From a virus, in the IMG/VR virus record IMGVR_UViG_3300047318_000296, positions 1 to 57,721 of that record: a stretch of DNA of 57,721 bases. The stretch is one strand, 5' to 3'. Position numbers and translations under genes: made by a program. Shown piece after piece: positions 52,988 to 57,721 of the stretch. Under the pieces are notes generated by a model. It ran no database searches, was not told where the DNA came from, and worked only from the letters and a program-made list of their open reading frames with translations. The stretch's first letter is position 1, and every line of letters starts with the position of its first letter.

Positions 52988-55084
52988 TTAAGCCAGCAGT
53001 GACCAATCCGTAGCACCTGTTCCCACATCCTTGGCGATATAGTACGTGGTGTTATCGGTGCGCTTAATAATTTCTCCGACATACATCGCGTTAACCGTAG
53101 GCGCTCCCGACACTGTACGTCTCAGATCGATGTTGTTCGGCATTCTAATGATGTTCGGCTGGAATATGTATATCGTGTGCTTGGACGAGTCAAAGCTCAC
53201 CAGCCCAAGGTTGCCTGTGCCTTGAAATAGGTTATCGGTCATCACCATTCGGGCAATTGTCGATGACGAATAGGTGAATTCCATGATGGCGTAAGTAATG
53301 CCATTGACATTATTACCGTTAACCACTAGCGAGCCAATATTTCCGGTAAGGATGAACTCAATGAAGCGGGAGCAGTCGTGGACGATATTGTTACTAACTG
53401 TAACAGATGCGCCGCCGCCGATACGAACGGCACGATAAGCGTTTTTAATCGTATTATTGCTGATATTTATAGCTTTACAGGTAGAAGCGCCGCGTTGACG
53501 TACCCCGTAATAATTGAGAGCGTTGTCAGCCGTGTTAAGGCAGTCCCATACGTTTCCGGTAATATTAATGTTGTCGAGTTGCTGACCATCTAGGTTGGCG
53601 TCGAACAGTACCATGGCGCGGGTCGATCCTGCTATGACGGAGCGTCCATCATAAATACGCGTGCCTTGTACCGTGATCTCGCCGCCGACAATGGAAGGCG
53701 TACCAAAGCGTTGTAAATGGATCGCCCCTTCGCCAAGGAAGTTACGAATCGTGCCGCCAATGACAGAAATCTTGTGAATCTGTGCCGCGTTGTAATTACC
53801 ATCGTTGAGTAGCAGGATAGGCGCTTCAATCGTACCTTCGATCACATTGTCTTGGATCAGGATATTGCCATTTGATCTGATGCCGCGTAAAAAATTATTG
53901 CGTTTTTCAGTGTTTGTGTTGTAAGCCGCGCCAGAATTAAACGCTTGTCCACATGTAATTCGGTTCCCCCGAACAATCGCGACATGCTCACCGTCCATTG
54001 TGATTGGCGCAACACCATCACCCTCAAATGAAAATACGACAATACCGTCAGGCTTCATCCAGCCCACGTTTGCCGAACTCTGTGTCACATCGTTGTCAGT
54101 GATCCGTACCGAACCCCATTCAAACCAGATCGAGCCGGGATTGAACACTTCGCCGTTATAAGAAGGAGCGCCTTCGATTCGCTGAAAACCACAATTAATG
54201 ACGCGGTTGTTACTAATGGTGGTATCGAAAGCGCCACGAACGAAAATACCTTCAACCTGATCCTCCTCCATCCGATTGCCGACGATCTGCACCCCGTAAC
54301 TAAAACGTGGCACGCCTCCGGTATCAATGGTCGGGATGTTCTCGGTAACGGCAGTAAAACTGTTATCGTATTCTCGGATTTGGATCGTGGCACGATCACC
54401 GGTTTGACGCGTCACGTCATAGACGGATGACACACCATTTCGATAGCCCTGATTACTCTTGAAATCAAGGCCGTCAAGCATGCCACAACCAGCCAAACCG
54501 CTCCATGTATTATCAGAAAATTTGTTGCGTTCTACCTTGGCGTAACCAGTTTGCCACAGCACAAGCCCATTCATATAACCGTTGATGAATTTACAGCGAT
54601 GGACGTGAATGTTTTGGGACGGATTGAGATTGTCTGGCGAGGGCACGAACTCTAACAGTCCGTTGTGGCGGAACGGGCGCGATCCGCGTCCAAATGTGTT
54701 AACCGTTGCTGGATATGACTGGTTGTCACGGTTGCCGTCGAAAGTGATTCCTTCTACCTCGAACCAATCGCAGCCCTGCACCTGAAGTATGGACTTATAG
54801 TTGTGATAATTCGCATCAGTGTTAACAATGGCGTTCGGAGCCAGCTTGAACACCGCCACGCCCCGGCAGAACAATCTAACAGATGCCGTAGTCGTTATTT
54901 GTGAAGGAAAAATATAGGTGCCCTCGGGGACAGCGAGAGCGCCACCATTCGCGTCTTGCAACGCCTGAAGGAAATCAGCTGGATTAATCACTCCCGGCTT
55001 ACAGTAAGCATTGAGTGATAAGGGTAAGCCAAGCGCGGCTTGAACTCCTACTACGTGACTCCTAACCGTAAGCTCATAGCTCAT
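52988..55084 (-). CDS. Tailspike, right-handed beta-helix
   Basis: 698 aa. ATG 55084 is placed one base past the stop of the YPFGKK protein, after AAGGGGTGG. The start of the helix shows PADFLQALQDANGGALAVPE. Many N-rich turns follow, repeating every about 22-25 residues (VEGITFDGNRDNQ; IQDNVIEGTIEAPILLL; INISNNTIKNAYRAVRIG). The C-terminus (GEIIKRTDNTTYYIAKDVG) is a short beta cap. Tailspikes of this kind bind and often cleave surface polysaccharide; no lyase residues can be assigned from the sequence alone. Confidence 0.85.
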   Translation of the reverse strand: MSYELTVRSHVVGVQAALGLPLSLNAYCKPGVINPADFLQALQDANGGALAVPEGTYIFPSQITTTASVRLFCRGVAVFKLAPNAIVNTDANYHNYKSILQVQGCDWFEVEGITFDGNRDNQSYPATVNTFGRGSRPFRHNGLLEFVPSPDNLNPSQNIHVHRCKFINGYMNGLVLWQTGYAKVERNKFSDNTWSGLAGCGMLDGLDFKSNQGYRNGVSSVYDVTRQTGDRATIQIREYDNSFTAVTENIPTIDTGGVPRFSYGVQIVGNRMEEDQVEGIFVRGAFDTTISNNRVINCGFQRIEGAPSYNGEVFNPGSIWFEWGSVRITDNDVTQSSANVGWMKPDGIVVFSFEGDGVAPITMDGEHVAIVRGNRITCGQAFNSGAAYNTNTEKRNNFLRGIRSNGNILIQDNVIEGTIEAPILLLNDGNYNAAQIHKISVIGGTIRNFLGEGAIHLQRFGTPSIVGGEITVQGTRIYDGRSVIAGSTRAMVLFDANLDGQQLDNINITGNVWDCLNTADNALNYYGVRQRGASTCKAINISNNTIKNAYRAVRIGGGASVTVSNNIVHDCSRFIEFILTGNIGSLVVNGNNVNGITYAIMEFTYSSSTIARMVMTDNLFQGTGNLGLVSFDSSKHTIYIFQPNIIRMPNNIDLRRTVSGAPTVNAMYVGEIIKRTDNTTYYIAKDVGTGATDWSLLA

Positions 55085-55085
55085 A

Positions 55086-55262
55086 TCATTCCACCCCTTG
55101 CGTGATAGGTTGTGAATTAAGGGTGATGATGCGGCCATTTAATTTAAGCACGTTGAGTGGAATACGTAACGGCTTCTTTTTTGTTTTATTGAAAATAGGT
55201 CCCAACTTGCGGGTAATCTTTTTTCCAAAAGGGTAACTCATAGGCATTGGGGAATTATCCAT
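55086..55262 (-). CDS. Small fibre-cassette protein with YPFGKK N-terminus
   Basis: 58 aa: MDNSPMPMSYPFGKKITRKL, basic linker, then VLKLNGRIITLNSQPITQG. It shares YPFGKK with the other cassette heads and NGRIITLNS with NGQTLRITS of 48532. The start could also be ATG 55247 or 55241; no clear SD. Confidence 0.7.
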   Translation of the reverse strand: MDNSPMPMSYPFGKKITRKLGPIFNKTKKKPLRIPLNVLKLNGRIITLNSQPITQGVE

Positions 55263-55284
55263 ATTTGTAATTCTAAACTTACTT

Positions 55285-55313
55285 ATAATATCACGGAAAA
55301 TTGAAAAAGTCAA
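55285..55313 (-). promoter_or_regulatory. Fibre promoter
   Basis: Minus strand TTGACT (55313-55308), 17 bp, TATTAT (55290-55285). Confidence 0.78.
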
Positions 55314-55367: not shown

Positions 55368-55408
55368 ATGGGTTAAAGTTATTTAGGCGTGAGGAAATTT
55401 AGTGAATA

Positions 55409-55451
55409 ATGCTTAAATATCAAAACAGATAAGCACAAAATCTACCTCCAT
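55409..55451 (+). pseudogene. Remnant of a dCMP deaminase gene
   Basis: 43 bp about 80% identical to 56772-56813 of the intact deaminase gene. The first 16 bases are identical (ATGCTTAAATATCAAA). After a one-base insertion, GAT AAG CAC AAA ATC TAC CTC CAT reads DKHKIYLH against DEHKIHLH. Homology stops at the CAT just before the Ala-Glu of the zinc motif HAE, where the tnpB right end begins. Confidence 0.75.
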
Positions 55452-55580
55452 AACGTCTTATCATCCATCATTACTGACAGACAAAGATTCCCGCAACCGG
55501 AGGCTGACGATCCAGCCCAAGTTTGAGAATATTCCGTGCCGCGTTTACGTCTCTGTCATGAGGCGTGTCACAGCCGGAAC
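55447..55580 (-). ncRNA. Candidate omega RNA of tnpB copy 1
   Basis: In TnpB loci the guide RNA scaffold overlaps the 3' end of the gene and ends at the element's right end. Here the last part of tnpB and about 20 bp beyond its stop (GATAAGACGTTAT) are conserved with copy 2, then identity ends. The guide would be the flanking GGAGGTAGATTTTGTG, i.e. the deaminase remnant. The 5' limit is approximate. Confidence 0.4.
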
Positions 55581-56565
55581 AAGTCCAAACTCTCATTCCA
55601 AGATTCTTCCTCCCTTTCGGTCTCTGTGGCGGTTTCTCACCACATACGGAACAAACTTGGGTCGTATAAGCTTCGTTGGTAACGACGCATGTTCCCCGCC
55701 TACGGGCAGATTTATACAGGAGCATGTGTTTGAACGTTCCATGACTGGTGTCAGTTACGGATTTCCCGAATCCGTTCCGTGACATCCACCCACTATTCAG
55801 GTCGCCAACTACTATGTAGTCGTGGTCTTTTGTTAAGGTATTTGAAAGGGTGTGAAGAAAGTGCTTACGTTTGTTACGAGCTTTCTTATGAAGGGCTTTC
55901 GACCTCTTCTTATTTCGGGCTCGTTGAGCCGTACCAATCTTACTTTCTAAGTTACGAAATTCCCTTTCGTGTTCGTACTTAGTCCCGTCACTAAGAGTGG
56001 CAAATGTGGCGTAGCCAAGGTCGACCCCTACTTGGGAGACTTTGGGAGATTCCTTATCGTTTAAGACTTTGTATACGAAACAGACGTACCACTTACCATC
56101 TGCCTCTTGTACGAAACATCCGGTCTTGAATTCTCCTTCAAACTCACGCTCTTTCCAGAAACGGAATTTTCGTTTACAATAAATAAGATAGTCACCTCCC
56201 AATTTAACTCTGTTTAAAAAGGGTATCCAGCCAAGAGAACGCTTTGGTCCAAAGGAATGCCTTTTACGTGGGGTCTTTTTCTTAAAATTACGGGATTGGA
56301 TAAACGTCTTACAAATTTCAGAAACGGTGTCTGTGGACACTATTAGTAATTCTTTCGTCCCTCTTGACCAATTATTAAAGTCAAAATGACTTGGCCACTT
56401 ACAATCGTTACGTCCCGCTTTCCAATTACTAACAACCTTCTCTTGATAACGGACGAGTTCGTTCCACACAAAGTTAACCTCCCTAGAAAGCTGTTCTAGG
56501 GAATTAATGTGATTTGAGTCCTTGACTCGCTGTTTGTATGTGATATAAGAAAAATCTGAAGTCAT
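55471..56565 (-). CDS. tnpB: TnpB RNA-guided nuclease (IS200/IS605 OrfB), copy 1
   Basis: 364 aa. RuvC-like motif I GVDLGYATFATL (D182). The motif II position reads YIVVGDLNSGW, with G254 where canonical TnpB has the catalytic Glu. The zinc finger CSVCG...CSGC is preceded by TNEAYTTQ, whose E298 may substitute for it. Motif III is HDRDVNAA (D337/D339). This fits TnpB lineages with rearranged catalytic residues. No tnpA is present. ATG 56565 is almost leaderless behind the promoter at 56576. Confidence 0.92.
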   Translation of the reverse strand: MTSDFSYITYKQRVKDSNHINSLEQLSREVNFVWNELVRYQEKVVSNWKAGRNDCKWPSHFDFNNWSRGTKELLIVSTDTVSEICKTFIQSRNFKKKTPRKRHSFGPKRSLGWIPFLNRVKLGGDYLIYCKRKFRFWKEREFEGEFKTGCFVQEADGKWYVCFVYKVLNDKESPKVSQVGVDLGYATFATLSDGTKYEHEREFRNLESKIGTAQRARNKKRSKALHKKARNKRKHFLHTLSNTLTKDHDYIVVGDLNSGWMSRNGFGKSVTDTSHGTFKHMLLYKSARRRGTCVVTNEAYTTQVCSVCGEKPPQRPKGRKNLGMRVWTCSGCDTPHDRDVNAARNILKLGLDRQPPVAGIFVCQ

Positions 56566-56575
56566 TATGATTGAG

Positions 56576-56604
56576 AGACTAACATAAAAATTTAAATTTG
56601 TCAA
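56576..56604 (-). promoter_or_regulatory. Promoter for tnpB copy 1
   Basis: Minus strand TTGACA (56604-56599), 17 bp, TAGTCT (56581-56576). The expected start lies about 4 nt before the ATG, so the mRNA would be leaderless or nearly so. Confidence 0.55.
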
Positions 56605-56612
56605 GAGGTTAA

Positions 56613-56990
56613 ATGTATTTTAATTCAATAATTAAAAATGAGAATATTTTCAATCTTCTTCTTACTCAAGCTAAAACTTCGGACTTCACCTCACACAGAC
56701 ATTCCGCCGCGATTGTTTACAAGAAAAAGGTTTTGAGTATTGGCTGTAATCAAATAAAGACACATCCCCTGATGCTTAAATATCAAACCGATGAACATAA
56801 GATACACCTCCATGCCGAAATTGATGCAATCATTAAGGCAATTAACCTGCACGGCTCAGAAATCTTGAAGCGGTGTGAATTGTACGTACTTCGTCTAACT
56901 GGCGGTGGGAATGTTGGTCATAGCAAGCCGTGTCGCGGGTGTCAAAAAGCGATTGATGCGTTTGGTTTTAAAGGAGTTTATTGGACGTGA
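56613..56990 (+). CDS. dCMP/cytidine deaminase-like protein
   Basis: 125 aa. The zinc-dependent deaminase site is complete: LHAEIDAIIKA (HAE) and SKPCRGCQKAI (PCxxC), after HSAAIVYKKKVLSIGCNQIK. It converts dCMP or a related cytosine nucleotide to the uracil form, feeding dTMP synthesis. It follows tnpB directly and is transcribed away from it. Its codons across the tnpB insertion point differ from the remnant at 55409 at several bases. SD AAGAGG, ATG 56613. Confidence 0.85.
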   Translation: MYFNSIIKNENIFNLLLTQAKTSDFTSHRHSAAIVYKKKVLSIGCNQIKTHPLMLKYQTDEHKIHLHAEIDAIIKAINLHGSEILKRCELYVLRLTGGGNVGHSKPCRGCQKAIDAFGFKGVYWT

Positions 56991-57205
56991 CCGAATATAA
57001 TTGGATCGTTGATGATTTAGATAATGTGGTGATGCTTGAACGTGTCGATCCAATTACTAACTCATTGAGTTACGCCGTTGTAAGTGATAAGAAAGCGCTT
57101 GACAATTTTTTCCGAGTCACAGATACTGGTGATCTAGTCGGAATCGTCCCTGATCGATATGTCAAGGAATATAAGAATTATGTTAAACGAAACATTGGTC
57201 CTTAA
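56981..57205 (+). CDS. Hypothetical protein
   Basis: 74 aa. Acidic start (TEYNWIVDDLDNVVMLERVD), then VVSDKKALDNFFRVTDTGD. TTG 56981 (AAGGAG five bases before) or GTG 56987 (GTGA overlap). Unknown. Confidence 0.65.
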   Translation: MDVTEYNWIVDDLDNVVMLERVDPITNSLSYAVVSDKKALDNFFRVTDTGDLVGIVPDRYVKEYKNYVKRNIGP

Positions 57206-57219
57206 AGGAGTGCTTAAAT

Positions 57220-57483
57220 ATGCTAGCTTATGCAGATATGCTGATTCCAGCGGCGAAAGAAGCCGGGATGAAGGTTCCCTACGATCCAGATAGTTATGAC
57301 AAGGAAGAATATCCTCATTTCTTTGTCTATGCCGCGATTCAGCTTGGTCAAGCCTTGCCATATCCTTCGGCGCATTGGGATAATGCTCATGTCATTGCTG
57401 CTATTCCGGTAGAAAAATTGAAGCTCATGACGATGCAGGATTTCTATGACGCAGGTTTTGAGGCAGGGTTTCCGATTCCATAA
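57220..57483 (+). CDS. Hypothetical protein, 3' end likely cut by tnpB copy 2
   Basis: 87 aa: MLAYADMLIPAAKEAGMKVP, then FFVYAAIQLGQALPYPSAHW and FYDAGFEAGFPIP. AAAGGAGTGCTTAAAT before the ATG. The stop TAA lies in the first bases of the tnpB right end (CCATAACG), so the reading frame appears truncated or capped by the insertion. Unknown family. Confidence 0.65.
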   Translation: MLAYADMLIPAAKEAGMKVPYDPDSYDKEEYPHFFVYAAIQLGQALPYPSAHWDNAHVIAAIPVEKLKLMTMQDFYDAGFEAGFPIP

Positions 57484-57610
57484 CGTCTTATCGTCCGTCA
57501 TTGACAGACAAAGATTCCCGCAACCGGAGGCTGACGATCCAGCCCAAGTTTGAGAATATTCCGTGCCGCGTTCACATCTCTGTCATGAGGCGCATCACAG
57601 CCGGAACAAG
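57477..57610 (-). ncRNA. Candidate omega RNA of tnpB copy 2
   Basis: Same conserved 3' region as copy 1, lacking three bases (ACT) near the stop. Its guide would be the flank GGAATCGGAAACCCTG, inside the 57220 gene. The 5' limit is approximate. Confidence 0.4.
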
Positions 57611-57721
57611 TCCAAACTCTCATTCCAAGATTCTTCCTCCCTTTCGGTCTCTGTGGCGGTTTCTCACCACATACGGAACAAACTTGGGTCGTATAAGCTT
57701 CGTTGGTAACGACGCATGTTC
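57498..57721 (-). CDS. tnpB: TnpB RNA-guided nuclease, copy 2 (5' part beyond window)
   Basis: The last about 74 codons of a second tnpB, differing from copy 1 at only a handful of bases (for example TTCACATC against TTTACGTC) and ending in TGA rather than TAA. The zinc finger and HDRDVNAA-equivalent region are intact (here HDRDVNAA is encoded with a different preceding codon). The gene runs off the right edge in the same orientation as copy 1. Confidence 0.9.
   Translation of the reverse strand, partial: TCVVTNEAYTTQVCSVCGEKPPQRPKGRKNLGMRVWTCSGCDAPHDRDVNAARNILKLGLDRQPPVAGIFVCQ

Follow-up and report, generated by a model that had tools for sequence, protein, structure and literature searches.

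A phage tnpB element whose presumed guide matches another allele of the adjoining dCMP deaminase gene

Introduction

A TnpB guide is generally regarded as a record of the site where its element inserted. The closest described systems are the IS200/IS605 TnpB elements, including ISDra2 (PMC8612924) and a plasmid TnpB gene drive (PMC11870625). The element described here belongs to the same family and shares with them a right-end RNA with a flank guide, insertion beside a short motif, and predicted cutting of element-free copies. ISDra2 TnpB uses about 16 nt of the flank as its guide and cuts 15–21 bp from the TAM (PMC8612924), and TAM-proximal double mismatches in positions 1–12 abolish its cutting (PMC10097598).

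The locus lies in a 57.7-kb IMG/VR virus record (hereafter the window, the whole stretch of 57,721 nucleotides that was analysed). Here, the presumed guide corresponds to another allele of the adjoining gene, and a nuclease of self-maintenance could become allele-excluding. In the accessible text of the open-access literature, we found no description of a phage TnpB holding a guide to another allele of the adjoining gene. The locus allows us to ask whether a phage TnpB acts like the free-standing homing endonucleases of T4, and whether TnpB shapes the spread of metabolic alleles.

Results

The element, its TnpB and the gene that it adjoins are as follows.

55450–56612, minus strand: element copy 1, 1163 bp, left end after ACAT, right end GACGTTAT; ends placed from related elements
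55450–55495, minus strand: right end with stem-loop; the stem has G-C in copy 2 where copy 1 has G-T
55471–56565 including stop codon, minus strand: tnpB, 364 aa, RNA-guided endonuclease family, with D182, E298 and D339 kept
56604–56608, plus strand: AGAGG in the left end, a likely ribosome-binding site now serving D2
56613–56990, plus strand: D2, intact dCMP deaminase gene with HAE and PCxxC motifs

The protein matched the TnpB family model NF040570 with 179.9 bits (cut-off 100), and Pfam PF07282 and PF01385 above cut-off. The RuvC residues D182, E298 and D339 are invariant in the TnpB alignment; E298 represents the relocated glutamate described in TnpB (PMC10711439) and lies six residues ahead of the zinc finger. 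Judged from sequence, this TnpB looks catalytically intact and is probably active. Copy 1 has no tnpA.

Single-sequence search of IMG/VR and genome contigs gave no close TnpB relative, and an alignment query yielded 80 tnpB loci, with relatives up to 49% identical. Element ends were read where similar elements occupy different sites (n = 10 related IS200/IS605 elements). The right end of these elements was mostly GACGTTAN, and the left end lay directly after (T/C)CAT (ten cases). Several of the closest relatives appear to have a divergent tnpA upstream of tnpB. IS607-type GG targeting, suggested by guides that start with GG in both copies in the window, was dropped in view of the NCAT sites and GACGTTAN ends of the related elements. 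Both copies share the right end GACGTTAT, which has one subterminal stem-loop, clearest in copy 2; the left end has no clear one. A search of IMG/VR with the right-end pattern gave two matches, both unrelated to tnpB. Of 86 tnpB loci surveyed, the window locus was the single one whose right-end flank clearly corresponds to an adjacent gene, the remaining self-matches being mainly repeats or short weak matches.

The following left ends were examined.

L106, L109, L111, L114, L119, L120, L122, L134, L159 and L172, together with 56604–56612 of the window: left ends

Read on the other strand, the (T/C)CAT site puts an ATG directly after the related elements. GGAG, GAGG or AGGA stood at the right distance in 7 of the 10 left ends, against 0.9 expected from shuffles, although the elements are related, so that the cases are not independent. 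On landing, the element may provide the adjoining gene with a ribosome-binding site. Of the ten ATGs, seven open frames of at least 78 codons (chance would give about a third), and some lie within genes; a preference for start codons over background is weakly supported. The best-ranked TnpB relative in an annotated phage collection (L011, Acinetobacter phage HFM1, 1975–4126) stands between a cytidine-deaminase-like gene and a MazG-like gene. It was dropped as a parallel case, since by eye it looks like an ordinary intergenic insertion. A stretch of about 21–27 nt just after tnpB occurs as several repeats, in both orientations, in L139, L140, L147 (contig 3300050119_000104) and L143; these are perhaps small non-autonomous derivatives.

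Outside the right end of tnpB lies a piece of a second deaminase.

55405–55449, plus strand: D1, fragment of a divergent deaminase allele, codons IMLKYQTDKHKIYL plus one extra A

An earlier note on this DNA had described this flank as about 80% identical to codons of the intact deaminase. We obtained 81.4% identity over 43 nt between 55409–55451 and 56772–56813, and the D1/D2 alignment score was reached in 0 of 500 dinucleotide shuffles. The homology starts at 55405, with no signal above shuffles further left, and its unambiguous end is 55449; the next two bases, 55450–55451 (AT), can be assigned to the deaminase or to the element end. The break is at the HAE motif, as the note had said, and falls inside the histidine codon. 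Without the extra A, which is one of 55422–55425, the frame reads ATA ATG CTT AAA TAT CAA ACA GAT AAG CAC AAA ATC TAC CTC C, encoding 14 codons (IMLKYQTDKHKIYL) and the first base of the next. With about 25 nt separating it from the element, the extra A falls beyond a guide of 16–20 nt.

In two syntenic relatives of the window, L003 and L025, a single intact deaminase stands in a series of small genes, with a homologue of 56981–57205 next. D1 differs from the L003 deaminase by six synonymous codons and one non-synonymous codon, from that of L025 by five and two, and from D2 by four and three. From these counts we infer that coding selection acted on D1 until recently and that D1 is an allele in its own right, not a degraded form of D2. 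Its capture appears to be recent, since apart from the extra A the fragment is intact and its differences from L003 are mostly synonymous.

On the tnpB strand the break site in D1 is GCAT, CAT being the HAE histidine codon in deaminases of this group. NCAT being the target motif of the related elements, this fits an earlier insertion into D1 at a regular site, which is well supported by sequence. To this extent tnpB did enter a deaminase gene, as first proposed, but the present locus is not a split gene. The remainder of D1 is missing on both flanks, with 45 nt surviving and no 3' half beyond the left end, and the left end of copy 1 abuts the ATG of D2, where ACAT is the NCAT site read backwards. 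The empty site would therefore not be simply a deaminase.

The intact, diverged deaminase reported behind the element is D2. Neither L003 nor L025 carries tnpB on its contig or a second deaminase fragment, and the 43-bp remnant, whose presence in tnpB-less relatives the earlier note had set as a refutation, was sought in both and is not present. Gene-wide, the deaminases of D2, L003 and L025 are about 68–73% identical. At the target, D2 differs from L003 and from L025 at 6 of 21 bases, compared with 5–6 of 21 between other alleles (5 of 21 for L003 versus L025), with no sign of recoding in D2 beyond ordinary allele divergence. Upstream in the window, a tail protein gene (52988–55313) is 68% identical to the NosD-like tail protein of Sinorhizobium phage phiM12, and the genes flanking it are near neighbours in L003 and L025, with small genes between them there.

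The guide and its counterpart in D2 were placed as follows.

55434–55449, minus strand: presumed omega RNA guide, 16 nt, GGAGGTAGATTTTGTG; length borrowed from ISDra2
56799–56814, minus strand: guide-equivalent site in D2, after GCAT, GGAGGTGTATCTTATG; coordinates uncertain by one or two bases

The omega RNA guide would begin GGAGGTAG, from 55449, and a target deaminase of D1 type would contain CACAAAATCTACCTCCATGC. The presumed guide matches coding sequence just before the HAE zinc motif, in agreement with the earlier view that it corresponds to codons at the catalytic site; the roughly six differences from the intact copy counted then over 20 bases were also recovered (6 of 20, or 4 of 16 over 16 bases). 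D2 mismatches the guide at positions 7, 8, 11 and 14, three of them within positions 1–12, and keeps the TAM. Because of the mismatches at 7, 8 and 11, D2 is predicted to be resistant to cutting, if the rules of ISDra2 are applied to this distant TnpB. By the same analysis the deaminases of L003 and L025 are probably resistant as well, that of L003 being mismatched at 5 and 8 within positions 1–12. As to whether deaminases of tnpB-less relatives match the guide, a check suggested in the earlier note, no deaminase among the IMG/VR hits agrees with it, the best having 5 of 20 mismatches, and an exact search of IMG/VR with the 16-mer gave four matches, none in deaminases. Self-cutting is not expected, because the right-end junction reads GTTAT, not NCAT, before the guide.

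A second copy of the element lies at the contig end.

57220–57483, plus strand: small conserved phage gene, phrog_28963, with its stop codon at the right end of copy 2
57480–57721, minus strand: element copy 2, truncated by the contig end to its right end and the final 73 codons of tnpB

Copies 1 and 2 are 98% identical over 220 nt and differ at 5 of 219 coding bases in the 73 common codons; in the protein one residue is changed, T to A. Copy 2 has its right end exactly at the stop codon of the gene at 57220–57483 (region 57477–57502), which is full length by comparison with phage phiM12; copy 2 may supply part of this stop.

Discussion

We lean slightly towards a TnpB-only element that holds a D1 guide and was joined to D2 by phage recombination, with local exclusion or homing bias as a possible outcome. 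Copy 1, a TnpB-only element of IS200/IS605 type, would have entered an NCAT site in D1, and the guide would thereby record D1 codons just 5' of the HAE zinc motif. Recombination between related phages would then join the right-end side and its 45 nt of D1 to D2, an intact and differently diverged deaminase, whose start codon would come to adjoin the left end. TnpB would cut D1-type deaminases of co-infecting phages and spare D2, and local exclusion or homing bias would result, as with the free-standing homing endonucleases of T-even phages, possibly as a mere by-product.

At least two joins are required, one of D1 to unrelated sequence at 55404/55405 and one of the left end to D2. Recombination of related phages at the deaminase locus would be their simplest source, and is favoured because an element is unlikely to land by chance beside a homologue of the very gene it came from. 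In this scheme we infer the activity of TnpB, the boundary of the guide in the RNA, the order of the recombination events and any advantage to the phage. Several points speak against it: searches found no virus with a D1-matching target, the left end lacks a clear stem-loop, D1 survives over 45 nt only, and the cutting rules are taken from ISDra2 for a distant TnpB. Allele exclusion as a by-product of an intact TnpB is plausible on sequence grounds. We are doubtful of a full RNA-guided marker-exclusion unit, with a guide against rival alleles of the adjoining metabolic gene and a linked resistant working allele that it would spread by cutting co-infecting relatives.

The locus could instead be a fossil, which we consider a real possibility without being persuaded of it: a routine IS insertion would have broken a deaminase, recombination with an intact allele would later have repaired the damage, and the locus, its guide left with no target, would only maintain the element. 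Searches found no matching target, the target divergence of D2 is ordinary (6 of 21 against 5–6 of 21 between other alleles), and D1 has one frame-shifting A. However, the TnpB residues and the right-end stem-loop are kept, and the otherwise intact fragment, mostly synonymous to L003, indicates a recent event. An old insertion followed by acquisition of a second deaminase, which the earlier note gave as its alternative, comes nearer to the evidence than its first proposal, except that the captured piece looks recent, not old.

Alternatively, the element could have used a false right end within D1, moved together with 45 nt of D1 and landed immediately ahead of D2; the sequence left of 55405 would then be the old leader of D2. 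The tnpB strand at 55406 reads TAAGCATTAT, near the true end TAAGACGTTAT, and GAGGA stands 9 nt ahead of the would-be junction with the D2 ATG. We judge this unlikely: about 1.2% of all positions score equally well, the spacing of the stem-loop would be wrong, and landing by chance beside a homologue of the gene of origin is itself improbable.

That first proposal was a natural cleave-and-rescue drive, in which selection keeps the guide against D1 genomes and D2 is recoded as the linked rescue. The layout fits, with a nuclease, a guide to the catalytic site and an adjoining working copy that by published TnpB rules is too diverged for efficient cutting. Nevertheless we hold selection for such a drive to be quite improbable, as D2 carries no recoding signal and its divergence is ordinary, no target virus was found, this is a single case in 86 tnpB loci, a deaminase need not be essential, and nothing in the locus shows selection for drive or rescue. 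An assembly artefact merging two copies of a repeat is scarcely credible: the contig does end in a second near-identical copy, so the repeat did break the assembly, but D2 sits between the two copies, so that on a linear genome, barring a third copy, the left end beside it can only be that of copy 1. Moreover, 5 of the 219 coding bases compared distinguish the two copies, and a misjoin would not account for D1 ending after 45 nt.

Compared with known systems, the preferred reading, in which a D1 guide was joined to D2, departs from IS200/IS605 TnpB elements in that the flank comes from another allele than the gene at the left end, and the guide mismatches the current site. The arrangement is like that of SegF and SegG of T4 in marker exclusion (PMC2988022): here, as there, a nuclease gene lies beside a conserved gene, its own allele would be resistant, and the rival allele is predicted to be cut and replaced. 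As in homing-type elements, tnpB adjoins D2 and its own allele has three mismatches in guide positions 1–12; a sensitive allele in a related phage was not present among the IMG/VR matches (best, 5 of 20 mismatches). Unlike in SegF and SegG, the target in the window is set by RNA, not protein, and cutting and co-conversion are predictions here. The intron endonuclease of phage PhiPA3 (PMC11620839) likewise belongs to a mobile element and may damage a conserved gene of a co-infecting relative; it is protein-guided, intronic and tested, whereas the window TnpB is RNA-guided, intergenic and read from sequence. TldR proteins, phage-borne derivatives of TnpB (PMC13418256), are likewise phage TnpB homologues with a guide to a specific gene. 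We considered and rejected identity with TldR, as the window TnpB has kept its catalytic residues. TldR proteins regulate flagellin genes of the host, whereas the guide in the window matches a deaminase of phage type.
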